Position numbers and translations under genes: made by a program. The notes under the pieces were generated by a model. The model saw nothing but the letters and a program-made list of their open reading frames with translations, was not told the origin of the DNA and made no database searches. Positions 4,109 through 51,751 of a DNA stretch of 64,000 nt are shown here, one piece after another. Positions within the stretch are counted from its first letter, which is position 1, and every line of letters begins with the position of its first letter. The DNA is taken from the NCBI GenBank assembly GCA_018064885.1, contig JAGHUI010000023.1, positions 62,001-126,000 of the forward strand, written 5' to 3'. This DNA is from Candidatus Minthosoma equi. GTDB taxonomy: Bacteria > Bacteroidota > Bacteroidia > Bacteroidales > Bacteroidaceae.

Positions 4109-5214
4109 TTGCGATTCTTCCACATAATTAACATGAACAATAGTACAGCAACAGGAATAGACACAAAGGTCAGTGTTTTTTCAGGAGAGTTTCTCAAGAA
4201 ATCGCCATCCTTACTTAACATACAGCTACTTACATAATGAGCACATAAACGTATCTTCTTTATGAAAGAATTGCCATGAGAATTTTTCAACTCCTGAACA
4301 CGATACTTTGCATAGCTTTTAGGTGATCTCCAATACTGTTTCCATATTGCAGCAGACATTGAGTCACCTCCTGTCTGATATTCTACCCAACACAGATTTT
4401 CATTCATATACAATATGGAATATTTATCCAATACCTGCATCTGCATATAATGAGGATTAAAGTCCTTTTCACCTTCAAACCCTTCCATTGGTGCAACTTG
4501 AATCATCAGTTCAGTTCTAAAGACATATTTAGTATCACCCACATGATTCATCTCCAATGCATTCCCATCTGAACCCTCCTTAAAATATCCTCCTATTGGT
4601 TTCTTATCAACAACATTAAAATCTAGTCCAACCATTCCACAATACTTCTCTTTCTCAACTTCACTCAACTTACTCCACTTATCAACTATAAGTTCCACCG
4701 CATCATCTGGCATATAATCATCAGAATCTATGCATACACACAACTCTGTCTGAATAGTCTGATATGCTACATTGTACCCTGTATAAAGGCCACCATTTGG
4801 TTTGTAGATGTAAGTTATGGTTAGAGTTGAGGGAGTTGAGGAAGTTGAGGGAGTTGAGGAAGTTGAGGAAGTTGGATGTACGATGATTTGAAAATAATTC
4901 TGCGCATTTAATTCCACATAATCTCCATGATCGACGCCATCATCTACATTCCTATCAAAAAAGCGTCCCATCCAATCCACACATAACATTTTTGCCTCAC
5001 TCAACTCATTCAACCCATTCAACTCACTCAACCCATTCAACTCACTCAACTTCTCCCCAAGTGACTCAACCCACTCTCTCGTTCCGTCACTACTGCCATC
5101 ATCAATAATCAGCCATTCAAAATCATCACATGTCTGACGACACAGCGATTCAAATGTTCTTGGCAACGTATGCTTTCTATTATATGTTGGTGTAAATACT
5201 GTTATTGTTTTCAT
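4105..5214 (-). CDS. Family 2 glycosyltransferase with two repeat inserts
   Basis: 369 aa. MKTITVFTPTYNRKHTLPRT starts a GT-A fold; WLIIDDGSSDGT and CIDSDDYMPDD supply the nucleotide- and metal-binding Asp residues. Two insertions made of 9-bp repeats lie between these motifs: an (S/N)EL(N/S)GL-type array at about residues 55-72 and an ST[SP] array at about 112-130. Some 40 residues between them may also be extra. The C-terminus has a single hydrophobic segment (VSIPVAVLLFMLIMW), suggesting a membrane anchor. It overlaps the next GT4 gene by ATGA. Donor and acceptor are unknown. Confidence 0.85.
   Translation of the reverse strand: MKTITVFTPTYNRKHTLPRTFESLCRQTCDDFEWLIIDDGSSDGTREWVESLGEKLSELNGLSELNGLNELSEAKMLCVDWMGRFFDRNVDDGVDHGDYVELNAQNYFQIIVHPTSSTSSTPSTSSTPSTLTITYIYKPNGGLYTGYNVAYQTIQTELCVCIDSDDYMPDDAVELIVDKWSKLSEVEKEKYCGMVGLDFNVVDKKPIGGYFKEGSDGNALEMNHVGDTKYVFRTELMIQVAPMEGFEGEKDFNPHYMQMQVLDKYSILYMNENLCWVEYQTGGDSMSAAIWKQYWRSPKSYAKYRVQELKNSHGNSFIKKIRLCAHYVSSCMLSKDGDFLRNSPEKTLTFVSIPVAVLLFMLIMWKNRK
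4826..4879 (-). repeat. 9-bp array in GT2 gene, GTTGAGG(A/G)A type
   Basis: Five GTTGAGGRA 9-mers plus one decayed unit, read on the plus strand. The coding (minus) strand gives ST[SP] triplets in frame. Its orientation is opposite to that of the second array in the same gene. Confidence 0.85.
4997..5050 (-). repeat. 9-bp array in GT2 gene, (T/C)CAYTCAAC type
   Basis: Six consecutive 9-mers alternating TCACTCAAC, TCATTCAAC and CCATTCAAC on the plus strand. They encode SEL/NGL triplets on the minus strand. Together with the array 120 bp away they could pair as a long hairpin through the GTTGA/TCAAC cores. Confidence 0.85.
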
Positions 5215-48293: not shown

Positions 48294-48362
48294 TTCTTCC
48301 GTAAAACAACAACAACCTTTTCCGTTAAACTACATTCACTTCTCCTTTTGTCTCGTGTTGCT

Positions 48363-48429
48363 CTACGTTTCATTGTTTGAAACGTACATTCCAAACAAGG
48401 AAACGTATATTTCAAACAATGAAACGTAG
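48363..48429. repeat. 67-bp inverted repeat after murF
   Basis: Arms of 20 bp (48363-48382 and 48410-48429, beginning CTACGTTTCATTG) are exact reverse complements. The 27-bp centre holds further GTTTGAAACGT-like copies (ATTCCAAACAAGGAAACGTA). It may be a terminator, a binding site or a miniature repeat. No U-run follows. Confidence 0.8.
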
Positions 48430-48539
48430 ATAAAACCGAGGTGTTTTGCCAAATAAACACGAAGAAAGAGAAATAGGATGTCCCCCGATTGGGATAACGA
48501 ACTGAAAGTTTGAATGATAAGACTGAAACAAAGAAATTA

Positions 48540-48590
48540 GCACCGACAAGCAACTTTTTTGCCTGTCGGTGCTTTTGTTTGTTTCTTTTT
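48540..48590 (+). terminator. Strong intrinsic terminator
   Basis: GCACCGACAAGCAA pairs with TTGCCTGTCGGTGC (14 positions, one A-C mismatch) around five T; the run TTTTGTTTGTTTCTTTTT follows. It would end transcripts coming from murF. The T-rich tail merges with the promoter of the next unit. Confidence 0.85.
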
Positions 48591-48593
48591 GAT

Positions 48594-48601
48594 TATCTTT
48601 G
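48594..48601 (+). promoter_or_regulatory. -7 box TATCTTTG for the ncRNA candidate
   Basis: TATCTTTG fits TAnnTTTG and lies directly after the terminator. TTTG at 48574-48577 gives a 16-bp spacer, shorter than the usual 18-22. No CDS begins within 290 bp, so the transcript would be non-coding at first. Confidence 0.6.
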
Positions 48602-48607
48602 CAATGT

Positions 48608-48840
48608 CATTGGGATTTATGCCCTTTGGCAGACATTTTTACTAACATTAGCGTTGCTAATTTATTCGTACTTCCTGTAAAATTTGGTCGTTTGAAAGAA
48701 GTAAAACGAATAAGGATGAATTCAACGCCTGCGCCTTAGGTGCGGGCATTGGACTTATCTTCGTTTTACGGGTTTGACCAAATACCCACAGGAAGAGATA
48801 AGGAAGAGCTCAGCACCTTTTTCTTATCTCTTCCTTTCGT
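48608..48840 (+). ncRNA. Candidate structured non-coding RNA (6S-like architecture?)
   Basis: No coding potential is visible, but the sequence folds strongly. A small hairpin ATTAGC-GTT-GCTAAT (about 48647-48661) is followed by one long rod: CTTCCTGT (48671) with ACAGGAAG (48788), ATTTGGTC (48682) with GACCAAAT (48776), an asymmetric internal loop, GTAAAACGAA (48701) with TTCGTTTTAC (48760), TAAG with CTTA, another internal loop, and an apical GCCTGCGCC-TTA-GGTGCGGGC hairpin with two G-U pairs. A terminator hairpin ends it. A rod with an open internal loop is how 6S RNAs look; no match to a known family could be tested. Boundaries follow the -7 box and the terminator. Confidence 0.6.
48791..48837 (+). 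terminator. Terminator hairpin of the ncRNA
   Basis: GGAAGAGATAAG (48791-48802) is exactly complementary to CTTATCTCTTCC (48823-48834); TTTCGTATTT follows. The 5' arm overlaps ACAGGAAG, the closing strand of the long rod, so the two structures exclude each other in part. Confidence 0.6.
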
Positions 48841-48898
48841 ATTTGACCTTCTGGCCCGTAGCTACGAAATTAGTTCAGCGCCTTAAATCTATCGCGCC

Positions 48899-49045
48899 AT
48901 GTCAAAGATTTATGACAATATTGGTGATGGCAAGAAGTTCAAGGACATACTTGACAATGTGATTACCGAACCAGGGGTTGAGCGTATGGACTTCTGCGTG
49001 GGTTACTTCAACCTGCGTGGATGGGACTCATTGCTATCTGAATAA
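48899..49045 (+). pseudogene. Truncated N-terminus of a PLD/helicase-type protein
   Basis: A 48-aa frame: MSKIYDNIGDGKKF, then MDFCVGYFNLRGWDSL and a stop. This is the start seen in PLD-domain helicases (restriction/defence-associated, NgoFVII/SNF2-like), where DFCVGYFNLRGW begins the first PLD strand. Everything after the first strand is missing, so the gene is a stub left at the edge of an insertion or deletion. It is too short for the usual 900-1100 aa family. Confidence 0.6.
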
Positions 49046-49097
49046 AAGAACAAATATCAACAAGTGTTTCATTTATAGTATTAATCATTTATTTATT

Positions 49098-49220
49098 ATG
49101 GGTGATATTCATGCTGGATTTAGCGACATTGAAAATGGAGGAAGATGCTCAAGTTGTGGGTGTATTATCTTGTTCATCATTATTCTGCTTTGCTTGTCTT
49201 CTTTTTGCTTTATAAATTAA
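49098..49220 (+). CDS. Small single-pass membrane protein
   Basis: 40 aa from the ATG at 49098. N-terminal soluble part MGDIHAGFSDIENGGR, then a Cys-rich CSSCGC and one hydrophobic helix (IILFIIILLCLSSFCFI). Not recognised. No clear ribosome site, though an A/T-rich leader is usual here. It is 38 bp before the next gene. Whether it is translated is uncertain. Confidence 0.45.
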   Translation: MGDIHAGFSDIENGGRCSSCGCIILFIIILLCLSSFCFIN

Positions 49221-49258
49221 AACGTTTTTGGTAAAAATTGTAATTAAAAACAATTATT

Positions 49259-49963
49259 ATGTTGTATTCGAAAAATGGTAAAAGTTTCGATGAATTGGTA
49301 TCAGGGAATATCAATTGGACGAAGTTTACTTCGTACTTAATTAAGTTACGAAAACGTGGTTTTAAAGATAGTGATGTTATGGATATATTACCTCCGGAAG
49401 TCAGAGCGGTCGTTGAGGACTTGTTGGAGATAATAGATGATAGTCTTACACAAAGCAAACTAAATGAATTGCTGAGTTCTTCTGTAGAATGGTACGAAGG
49501 AGCTTGTGCATTGTTTGCCATGTGTTATTGTAATTATGATAGAGAACAATACAGCTATACAATAGCGGATTTGGCTTTTTATCAAATAAGCATGCAAATT
49601 GATTATGAAAATGAATACGAGGAAGATTCGGAAGCATCACATATAATACGTCTTCATATTCTTAATTATGCAACCGAATGGTATCAAATTTTAGTTAGAG
49701 AAGCTTATGATAATCATGCTCCAAAATGTTATGAGCCCCTTACCTTTGGAAGAGATGATGCATTTAATTTTTTGATGATGTCAGAATGCTACCTTTTAGA
49801 GGATAGTGAATGTGAAGAAGAATGGTTAATTGCTCTTCGGAATAGGTGCTATGACTTTGAAGAAGATTATCCAGATTTTGATCGTGAAGAAATTATTGAA
49901 AAAGGACAGTGGGTTGCTGGATGGCTTCAAGATGAAATTTGGGAAATGTATAAGAATATGTAA
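49259..49963 (+). CDS. Uncharacterised acidic 234-aa protein
   Basis: Not recognised. 234 aa, strongly acidic (runs such as DYENEYEEDSEASH and DSECEEEWLIALRNRC). Mostly helical by appearance: WTKFTSYLIKLRKRGF, VVEDLLEIIDDSLTQ, WYEGACALFAMCYCNYD, FNFLMMSECYLLED. No signal peptide or membrane helix. Acidic, compact, helical proteins in rows of small genes are often immunity proteins or phage-defence accessories; that is only an analogy. The base use (AT-rich) differs from the core genes on both sides, pointing to transfer. Confidence 0.65.
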   Translation: MLYSKNGKSFDELVSGNINWTKFTSYLIKLRKRGFKDSDVMDILPPEVRAVVEDLLEIIDDSLTQSKLNELLSSSVEWYEGACALFAMCYCNYDREQYSYTIADLAFYQISMQIDYENEYEEDSEASHIIRLHILNYATEWYQILVREAYDNHAPKCYEPLTFGRDDAFNFLMMSECYLLEDSECEEEWLIALRNRCYDFEEDYPDFDREEIIEKGQWVAGWLQDEIWEMYKNM

Positions 49964-49996
49964 TAGATATACTTGTTAAACTATTTAATTTGTTTT

Positions 49997-50350
49997 ATGG
50001 AAATCAATCCAACTTGGCAAAATGCTTTTAGAGGAGAATTGGTGCAAAATCTCCGTAGAGTCTCTAATGACTTCACTCGACAGTTGTTAATTATTGATAT
50101 CGCAAAAGAATGTATCATGTATTCATGTGATATGTGTCTTGAATATAATCGTCAAGGGGCATATATTGGTATTTCAAACTCTGTCGTTGACAATATTACC
50201 TACAATGTTTGTATTGCGATGAATGGCTTAGTTCATGAATTTGGTGAATCTCAGAGAAACGAAGTCATGTCGAGAGTTAGAGAACTGATGAAAGATCCTC
50301 GTACTTATTCTGTGTTACAAGAAGAAATAGATAAGTATTACGGAAGATAG
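49997..50350 (+). CDS. Uncharacterised 117-aa protein
   Basis: Start set at the ATG at 49997 (MEINPTWQNAFRGELVQNLR); an upstream ATG at 49973 would add MLNYLICF. Not recognised. Helical and soluble, with a Cys-containing centre (ECIMYSCDMCLEYNRQG) and GISNSVVDNITYNVCIAMNG. The C-terminal helices are amphipathic. The gene follows the 234-aa gene by 33 bp and is probably co-transcribed. The 183 bp after it hold no gene that I can support. Confidence 0.6.
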   Translation: MEINPTWQNAFRGELVQNLRRVSNDFTRQLLIIDIAKECIMYSCDMCLEYNRQGAYIGISNSVVDNITYNVCIAMNGLVHEFGESQRNEVMSRVRELMKDPRTYSVLQEEIDKYYGR

Positions 50351-50533
50351 AATGCGTTTCTCTTTTACTATTATGGTGGCAATGAATGCTGTATGGAGTA
50401 TGAACTTACCGTAATGAATGTATTATTTACTATAATAGTAAACAAAAACAGATGGCAGTTTTTAGAATAAATAAAAGTAAAGAGTATATTGCATTTTTGT
50501 GTTATTCATTAATTATTAATATCAACTTAAATT

Positions 50534-50857
50534 ATGACGAAAACTCAACAATTAGCGTTTGTTCGTTGTCTTTATGAAATGGCAAATGCAGACGGACAAG
50601 TTGTTAGATCTGAATCTAACATTATTATGGAAGTGTTAAAGTGGTGGAACTTTACGACTGATGACTTGAATAGAGCTCTATCAATCGACATACAAAGTGC
50701 CGCAACACAGTTAAAAACATTAAACGAGAGTGAGAAAATCCAACTTGGTATGCTGTTAGGCAAAATTTCAGTTGCAGATGGCAGAATATGTAACAATGAA
50801 AATCAGTTCTTTAATTGGCTTGATAGCCAACTGGGATTAAGTAAATTGATGGATTAG
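50534..50857 (+). CDS. TerB-like domain protein
   Basis: 107 aa. Two acidic loops spaced as in TerB: MANADGQVVRSESNIIMEVL and ISVADGRICNNENQFFNWL, each with the ADG-x(4)-E pattern that binds metal in TerB-like folds, which occur in tellurite-resistance and phage-defence contexts. All helical, cytoplasmic. The same frame continues open for 43 codons after its TAG stop. Stand-alone TerB domains act with partner proteins; candidates are its neighbours in this island. Role unknown. Confidence 0.7.
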   Translation: MTKTQQLAFVRCLYEMANADGQVVRSESNIIMEVLKWWNFTTDDLNRALSIDIQSAATQLKTLNESEKIQLGMLLGKISVADGRICNNENQFFNWLDSQLGLSKLMD

Positions 50858-50989
50858 TTCGCTCTCTCTAAACACTACAGTTTCATAGGGGAAGAACTTA
50901 TCTTCATCATAAACTATGACATCAAATATCGTATGGGTGATGAACTTGTTAAGAAGAGTAAAGATTTGTCATTAACTAAAAAACAATAA
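50858..50989 (+). other. In-frame open stretch after the TerB-like stop
   Basis: Directly after the TAG, 43 codons stay open in the same frame and read FALSKHYSFIGEELIFIINY, then DIKYRMGDELVKKSKD before TAA. It has no start of its own near the front. It could be a lost C-terminal extension (nonsense mutation) or the tail of another vanished gene. Chance cannot be excluded in AT-rich DNA. Confidence 0.3.
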
Positions 50990-50992
50990 ACA

Positions 50993-51283
50993 ATGGATCA
51001 AATTTCAACAACAACAGAGACCATCATTGCTTATGGTAATGATACTTGGGAGAATCTAGGGGATGTTACACTCTATTATAAAAGCAGTAATGGATGCAAA
51101 GAGGCCTCAGGTACTTCTGCTACACTGCTATTCAAAATGGTTCCTGGTCTTGGTAAGCGATTTAAAATTGTATATAAAGAAAAGGTGTATTCAATCGAAA
51201 AGAACAAGACTTGTAGATTATCTGATTGCAATGCCTATATTGGCGCAATAGATCGTTATCTAAATGTAGAAGGATACGAATAA
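50993..51283 (+). CDS. Uncharacterised 96-aa protein
   Basis: Not recognised. 96 aa with a beta-rich look: TETIIAYGNDTWENLGDVTL, YYKSSNGCKEASGTSA, FKMVPGLGKRFKIVYKEKVY and CRLSDCNAYIGAIDRYL. No signal peptide, no membrane helix; three Cys. The gene ends 3 bp before the DprA-like gene, suggesting joint translation. Confidence 0.55.
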   Translation: MDQISTTTETIIAYGNDTWENLGDVTLYYKSSNGCKEASGTSATLLFKMVPGLGKRFKIVYKEKVYSIEKNKTCRLSDCNAYIGAIDRYLNVEGYE

Positions 51284-51286
51284 ACT

Positions 51287-51751
51287 ATGACATCAATAGG
51301 CAATACCGAACTACTGACCTCATCAATCTCTGGTTTCCTTTGTTCACGCACCATAGCGAGCAAAGCAATCTTGCCATGTCTTGATTGGGCAGTGGAAATT
51401 GCCAAAGATGAAAATGCAACCGTCATGAGCATCTTCCATTCTCCCATTGAAAGGGAGGTGCTCACCTTTCTCCTTCAAGGCAAGTGCAAAATCATCATAG
51501 TTCTTGCCCGCACCCTCTACAAAACAATTCCTTCCGAACTGAAGCCTGCCCTCGAAGCCAACAGGCTTCTGATTCTTTCCATTAGCAACCAACCTCGTAT
51601 CTCCAAACAGTCGGCTCTCGCCAGCAACAAATACATCTGCGAAAACTGCCACTCCCTAAACTTTGGTTTCATATCGAAGGATAGCTCACTATTCCCTTTA
51701 TATAACGAGGCAATAAAAACAGGAAAGAGCGTAAATGTGCTTCACTTCTGA
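51287..51751 (+). CDS. DprA-like Rossmann-fold protein
   Basis: 154 aa. IGNTELLTSSISGFLCSRTI, LDWAVEIAKDENATVMSIFH, SPIEREVLTFLLQGKCKIII and VLARTLYKTIPSELKPALEA match the short DprA/Smf-related family (S-F-x-S-x-x-E-x-x-x-L in other members) that is common near defence genes in Bacteroidota. It lacks the extra domains of true DprA (about 370 aa), so a role in transformation is unlikely. It may bind nucleotide or single-stranded DNA. Base use is closer to the core genes than to the small genes upstream. Confidence 0.7.
   Translation: MTSIGNTELLTSSISGFLCSRTIASKAILPCLDWAVEIAKDENATVMSIFHSPIEREVLTFLLQGKCKIIIVLARTLYKTIPSELKPALEANRLLILSISNQPRISKQSALASNKYICENCHSLNFGFISKDSSLFPLYNEAIKTGKSVNVLHF

Follow-up and report, generated by a model that had tools for sequence, protein, structure and literature searches.

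A structured RNA that lies behind murF in Candidatus Minthosoma equi is quite probably a cis-acting 5' leader that works as a riboswitch-like transcription attenuator, as judged from sequence comparison and predicted folds. It has been found in a 64,000-nt stretch of DNA (hereafter the window, to which all coordinates without a locus name refer), and appears to be one copy of a family of leaders that probably decide whether restriction and some cell-surface genes in Bacteroidales are read.

The structured RNA and the operon remnant behind it

The RNA extends over 48605-48835 on the plus strand, as do its parts and the genes behind it, and brings together a promoter box, four helices and a 3' hairpin with a U-run. 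The −7 box named in the original prediction has been found as TATCTTTG (48594-48601) and is of the TAnnTTTG type, which we take to be the Bacteroidetes −7 consensus. It had been said to follow directly after a terminator; a hairpin at 48539-48573 does precede it, but the scanner recognises this as a terminator for the minus strand alone. By eye, this hairpin (GCACCGACAAGC..., just 5' of the promoter) has a close counterpart before another copy of the RNA in the same genome (C87; L015 ~4396-4425, minus strand), and the window and C87 leaders have the upstream hairpin, the promoter and the first RNA hairpin, H1, in common, while their rods differ. A strong AT-rich inverted repeat (CTACGTTTCATTGTTTGAAA...TTTCAAACAATGAAACGTAG, 48362-48430) lies 3' of murF and has given weak matches to miRNA models only. 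No convincing ORF has been seen inside the RNA, in line with the earlier claim, and the mechanical ORFs that overlap it have 46-62 aa.

The segment 48668-48795 folds at −55.6 kcal/mol versus −27.4 ± 3.7 kcal/mol for its shuffles (z −7.56; 0/200 shuffles as good), and a z of −7.02 has been obtained for the wider stretch 48609-48845. Selection on structure, as originally suggested, is supported by these scores and by the family covariation described below. On the 5' side lie two small hairpins, H1 (TGTCA..TGGCA, 48605-48631) and H2 (ATTAGC-GTT-GCTAAT, 48647-48661, followed by TTATTCG). By eye, the pairs of H1 are kept despite base changes in L014 and one is broken in the C87 copy, and GCATTAGC..TTATTTCG is the probable counterpart of H2 in compact family members. 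The rod itself is present, with four helices of exactly the sizes foreseen (8, 8, 14 and 9 bp): P0 (48671-48678/48788-48795), whose 3' strand overlaps the start of the terminator hairpin; P1 (48682-48689/48776-48783, 5' strand ATTTGGTC); P3 (48701-48714/48754-48769, with a 2-nt bulge); and the apical hairpin P4, CGCCTGCGCC-TTA-GGTGCGGGC (48726-48747, pairs 48727-48735/48739-48747), the last two being backed by the fold and by family covariation. Its length is 125 nt and not 118 nt as given before, and a fifth helix, P5, is indicated by covariation, a GGGT...ACCC hairpin (48770-48787, pairs 48770-48773/48784-48787) whose loop contains the 3' strand of P1. As P1 crosses P5 by homology, the rod of the window is probably a pseudoknot, and the predicted core of the RNA is likewise probably pseudoknotted by P1 across P5. 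The G-U pairs noticed in the apical stem are present and recur at the same positions across the family; the TTTG strings pointed out in the internal loop are, by eye, not characteristic of the aligned family.

The terminator of the original prediction corresponds to a terminator-like end, the 19-pair hairpin T with its U-run (48790-48835, U-run at 48818-48822), and part of the U-run is able to pair inside T. A segment of the T loop (GCTCAGCACC, 48808-48817) is complementary to the 3' strand of P4, and the resulting helix (P4-3':T, hereafter PT) excludes P4; the window copy has 5 uninterrupted PT pairs, and more only with a bulged A.

A gap of 64 nt separates T from the ATG of the gene that had been described as truncated. 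Truncated it is: what remains are the 48 opening codons of a PLD-SNF2 helicase gene, of which a relative has the full version (48899-49045; 91.7% identical to the 1126-aa L048 protein over its residues 1-48). Behind it follow an unrelated replacement (49046-50863) with, among others, 234-aa, 125-aa and TerB-like 107-aa ORFs, a remnant of 28 residues from near the end of the Eco57I/IIG-type methyltransferase that belongs to the same operon (50864-50947; 78.6% over residues 1052-1079) and the operon's intact third gene of 154 aa, weakly DprA/PsyrA-like (51287-51751). At a different locus in G033, the leader precedes an intact gene of 1126 aa that encodes PLD and SNF2 helicase domains; the genes for an Eco57I/IIG-type methyltransferase and a 154-aa protein come next, and complete three-gene versions are present in several other Bacteroidales loci. 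A helicase 100% identical over 1069 query residues is encoded by contig JAKSLL010000015.1 (a horse-faeces Bacteroidaceae MAG). By this comparison, the stretch 48899-51751 is a decayed operon, whose leader survives and whose middle has been replaced by unrelated genes. The third protein, encoded also at L048 10654-11118 and L050 10689-11153, has relatives in 19/393 genomes sampled from the order, own included; a PsyrA match of E ~1e-5 has been obtained in 2/3 members scanned, L110 gives a DprA match that stays under the curated cut-off, and several loci carry 1-4 kb of extra DNA between the methyltransferase and the third gene.

Family members and the genes behind them

The RNA had been regarded as an orphan, which is not supported: at least four copies with differing sequences are present in the genome of the window (C98, C87, C31 and C78), and the family consists of 5' leaders in front of genes. 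When 48600-48845 has been searched by blastn in 200 genomes (own included), matches have been found in 9, among which G033 (87% identical) is the sole full-length match besides the window, the rest being short. The C87 copy has the promoter and first hairpin in common with the window (92% identical over bases 1-48 of the query), and its rod differs in sequence and by eye has the same layout. Two leaders of the same design (L050 and L051) have been found via close helicase relatives, and a covariance model made from these two (R2) matches 10/299 genomes; L049 carries a third such leader by eye only, as a further model, built from nine aligned members (R3), gives no match there. Among 399 genomes of the same bacterial family, 100 matches of R3 in 78 genomes are listed at E<=0.01, and 62/399 genomes remain at E<=0.001, as counted from the list. 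At this latter threshold, a class-wide sample has yielded 2/247 genomes, one of which is the window's own. The matches in the own genome were C78 and C31 in the 399-genome search, the window copy not being listed.

On the window, R3 matches 48698-48839 with 22.5 bits (E 0.0078 in 298 kb), a marginal score like those of C87 (23.8 bits) and of G033 C57 (22.3 bits), and the matches fall exactly on the elements. L112, which has been judged a chance match because it sits right behind a stop codon, outscores the window copy (27.7 vs 22.5 bits). As the score is so low, membership rests on synteny with G033 and on the order of the parts, and by these the window copy is taken to be a divergent family member. 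Like L112, L111 and L109 had come from the R2 search; L111 looks like chance as judged from its fold. L109 from another family of the order (G498) had initially been set aside from its fold as well; its RNA may belong to the family, given 31.1 bits with R3 and a 414-aa ORF 44 nt downstream. By eye, that ORF is metallo-beta-lactamase-fold-like.

The homologues have a common architecture and little sequence in common, and a non-autonomous mobile repeat has been rejected because the copies share structure and not sequence. A sequence pattern around the −7 box has given mostly scattered matches in the 399 genomes. In viral contigs, a pattern of the P4 3' strand has matched five stretches, none of them family-like when folded, and a second pattern zero; no match to phage and plasmid records has been obtained by blastn with the L051 and L163 leaders.

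The position of the members has been followed in the flanks of 69 of them, namely the best 64 of the 100 R3 matches and five members known earlier. Under a strict definition, in which an ORF has 80 aa or more and begins at the first start codon after a stop, 53/69 members have an ORF start no further than 120 nt downstream, 42 of them at 20-80 nt, compared with 5/69 in the opposite direction and 94/1320 random points. Under a looser rule, 56/69 members have such a start, and so have 663/1320 random points, for which reason it was replaced by the strict one. The gene begins 59 nt past the end of the model in G033, and in the C87 copy, with a C5-methyltransferase downstream, it starts 321 nt after the RNA, compared with ~50 nt typically. 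On the same strand, a −7 box precedes the core by ~95-260 nt in 61/72 members; the other strand of that upstream stretch has one in 10/72, and the 75 nt that follow the RNA have one in 1/72 (16/270 control stretches), so that for most members the only recognised promoter box precedes the RNA. A U-run of at least 3 is found in 72/72 members, and one of at least 4 in 50/72 and missing in 22/72; none of these counts are independent, owing to near-identical members such as L167 and L173. By position, the family would thus consist of same-strand 5' leaders of downstream genes, the gene in the window being the 48-codon remnant.

Which genes are served has been examined with Pfam for 56 first proteins from members under the looser rule. 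EcoRI_methylase has been found in 17 of them, SNF2 in 8, N6_N4_Mtase in 4, MmeI in 2, and N6_Mtase (HsdM, L105), a C5 methylase and D12 in 1 each, so that restriction-modification (R-M) families sum to 34/56 if no protein is counted twice. The operon types headed by the leader are I, II, IIG/MmeI, III and PLD-SNF2. PADLOC agrees with Pfam for the R-M part (type II methyltransferase 17, HKD+Snf2 7, type III methyltransferase 3 and IIG 2, among the families listed). The first proteins of L147, L151, L155 and L177, ~770 aa long and alike at the N-terminus by eye, are possibly an unknown restriction-type protein; those of L147 and L177, scanned singly, have no Pfam match. Later genes include GmrSD-N/HNH as the second in L141 and an AlwI nuclease as the third in L148, and no Pfam match has been obtained for the second of L140 or the third of L153. 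About 18/56 first genes are not R-M, with classes assigned to the loci by eye, and these include acyltransferase-3 (4), MBOAT (1) and a sulfatase-type protein (1) as well as BspA-type LRR, BACON, transglutaminase and radical-SAM proteins. With such a share, the signal may be a more general one. The gene spectrum, in which R-M comes first and surface and secreted proteins follow, suggests a regulon linked to exposure to phage or DNA.

Covariation and mutually exclusive helices

The paired positions covary among the Bacteroidales members, as would be expected from the original prediction. In the alignment of nine rows, 95.9% of the cells are paired and 29 are double-change cells vs 6.5 when shuffled, and in that of 72 rows the values are 92.4% and 469 vs 127, both alignments being fitted by a covariance model, which favours its own structure, and holding several near relatives. 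Because of this fit, three helices outside the model have been tested by comparing each strand's own partner with swapped ones. For PT, the own partner scores 1491.5 vs 1088 ± 29 (72 members), for P1 (the P5 loop with the 5' region) 1818.5 vs 1145 ± 29 and for P0 (the pre-T strand with the 5' region) 1613.5 vs 1054.7 ± 27.9 (71 members each), with 0/2000 permutations in every case, where the permutation takes members as independent, which relatives are not. When the P5-loop and pre-T strands are set against sequence lying further upstream, no signal is obtained (1660 and 740 of 2000).

Aligned with plain MAFFT, 27 compact leaders have 95.3% of their cells paired, with 87 double-change cells vs 26.2 shuffled, and slid versions of the alignment have 38-51% paired. 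P0 (99.2% of cells paired) and P1 (98.3%) show many compensatory changes there, PT is paired in 88.1%, and further pair types are not above shuffles (369/500).

P4 and PT use the same 3' strand of P4 and are thus mutually exclusive. The mean energies are −9.6 kcal/mol for the P4 hairpin, −16.4 kcal/mol for the PT duplex and −7.1 kcal/mol for the local T hairpin. PT is therefore more stable than P4 as a bare duplex, with the loop cost uncounted, and P4 is rich in G-U pairs in the 72-row alignment, both of which fit a hairpin made for displacement. Two exclusive helices with one of them at a U-run, as looked for in an attenuator, have been found for the family and are weak in the window copy. 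A conserved structured core is likewise found for the family, which has conserved stretches outside the helices as well.

Proposed switch and competing readings

According to the proposed mechanism, RNA polymerase would start at the promoter before the leader, make the pseudoknotted domain (H1, H2, P0, P1/P5 and P3-P4) and reach the terminator segment T ~60 nt before the start codon. The 3' strand of P4 would then have two possible partners, the 5' strand of P4 and the T loop beside the U-run, and since the two pairings exclude each other, the leader could be read through or terminated. With P0, P1, P3 and P4 intact, T would be a weak local hairpin and transcription would enter the operon; with P4 given up, its 3' strand would form a GC-rich helix with T and transcription would stop. 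The choice would be set by a signal, be it a small molecule, a protein or an RNA, acting on the conserved core. The structure, its covariation, the place ahead of ORFs and the lack of a second promoter box can be read from the sequences, and from these we infer termination at T, P4 as the read-through state and the direction of the switch. Like transcription-attenuating riboswitches and other attenuator leaders, the RNA would be a 5' leader with a conserved pseudoknotted core and a strand that takes part in two helices, which exclude each other and of which one lies beside a U-run; unlike these, it heads many R-M types and has no Rfam match in the stretch or in the member loci scanned.

Among other readings, processive antitermination comes closest, in which the RNA would bind polymerase or a NusG paralogue and cause read-through of T and of later terminators in horizontally acquired operons. 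EAR, put and ops/JUMPstart are antitermination elements that stand as leaders before accessory operons. The RNA resembles them in this position, the genes behind it (R-M, acyltransferases, one enzyme of sulfatase type, BspA-like proteins) look accessory and transferred, and the conserved stretches outside helices speak for such a reading; nevertheless, the RNA has, unlike these elements, a terminator-like end of its own whose switch strand covaries, and the mutually exclusive helix PT suggests that the switching takes place at T, which makes antitermination rather unlikely. A trans-acting small RNA merely adjoining R-M genes would account for a complete unit from promoter to terminator with a U-run of at least 3 in every member. 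We hold it to be still less probable, as an ORF starts close behind in 53/69 vs 5/69 in the opposite direction, a second promoter box is present in only 1/72 and one genome has several divergent copies. That the RNA is a component or guide of the PLD-SNF2/IIG/third-gene defence system, in the manner of omega-RNA or retrons, is suggested by its place beside the operon in the window, L048, L050, L051 and L110 (in L049 by eye only), and is improbable in the extreme given that this RNA also stands before unrelated systems and before genes outside defence, and that six related operons (L072, L073, L079, L080, L082 and L083) are without upstream RNA, as judged by eye and by R3 at E<=1.

The original prediction had put forward the 6S RNA of this lineage as one option, for which the rod with an open internal loop, the promoter box and the terminator-like end speak. 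We consider this practically excluded, as the RNA shares the rod with internal loop with 6S RNA (RF00013) and 6S-Flavo but differs in its leader position, which is not that of a free-standing gene, in its several copies per genome and in the lack of any model match: the 6S, 6S-Flavo and Bacteroidales-1 models are absent at E<=10 from 48294-48960 (cmscan), and a search of the whole genome of the window with RF00013 gives nothing at E<=10. GcvB and miRNA matches in the same E<=10 scan of 48294-48960 were below gathering scores and have been set aside as chance. Rfam 15 at gathering scores has detected only a tRNA elsewhere in the window and no family on the RNA stretch, only a tRNA in 20 member loci, and nothing at E<=0.1 in three short member loci. 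The other option of the original prediction, something undescribed, fits this missing Rfam match.

Regarding the literature, the attenuator reading has a counterpart at the RNA level in Eco29kI, whose R-M genes are described as being under antisense-RNA control (PMC12707154); here a sense-strand structured leader across R-M types takes the place of an antisense transcript. Two reviews on R-M control name C proteins, methyltransferase repressors, antisense RNA and hairpins at translation starts (PMC12707154, PMC3874152). The words riboswitch, attenuat-, leader and untranslated are absent from the 2025 review PMC12707154, and such a leader is not described in the available portions of PMC8040213, PMC2864571, PMC12707154 and PMC3874152. 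No report of such a leader has been met in the literature searched, which consisted mainly of open-licence papers, so that novelty is not proven; the leader family is apparently undescribed.

The most far-reaching interpretation, that in Bacteroidales one new riboswitch-like class governs, as master control, a phage-exposure regulon, in which one intracellular signal (e.g., SAM/SAH or infection) would switch all R-M types together with surface-modifying and secreted proteins, is offered as a speculative and on balance unlikely one. The timing of R-M systems is delicate in that the host must be methylated before cutting. A leader common to unrelated R-M operons and surface genes would constitute a new layer of control, and one RNA model would make the whole regulon visible.
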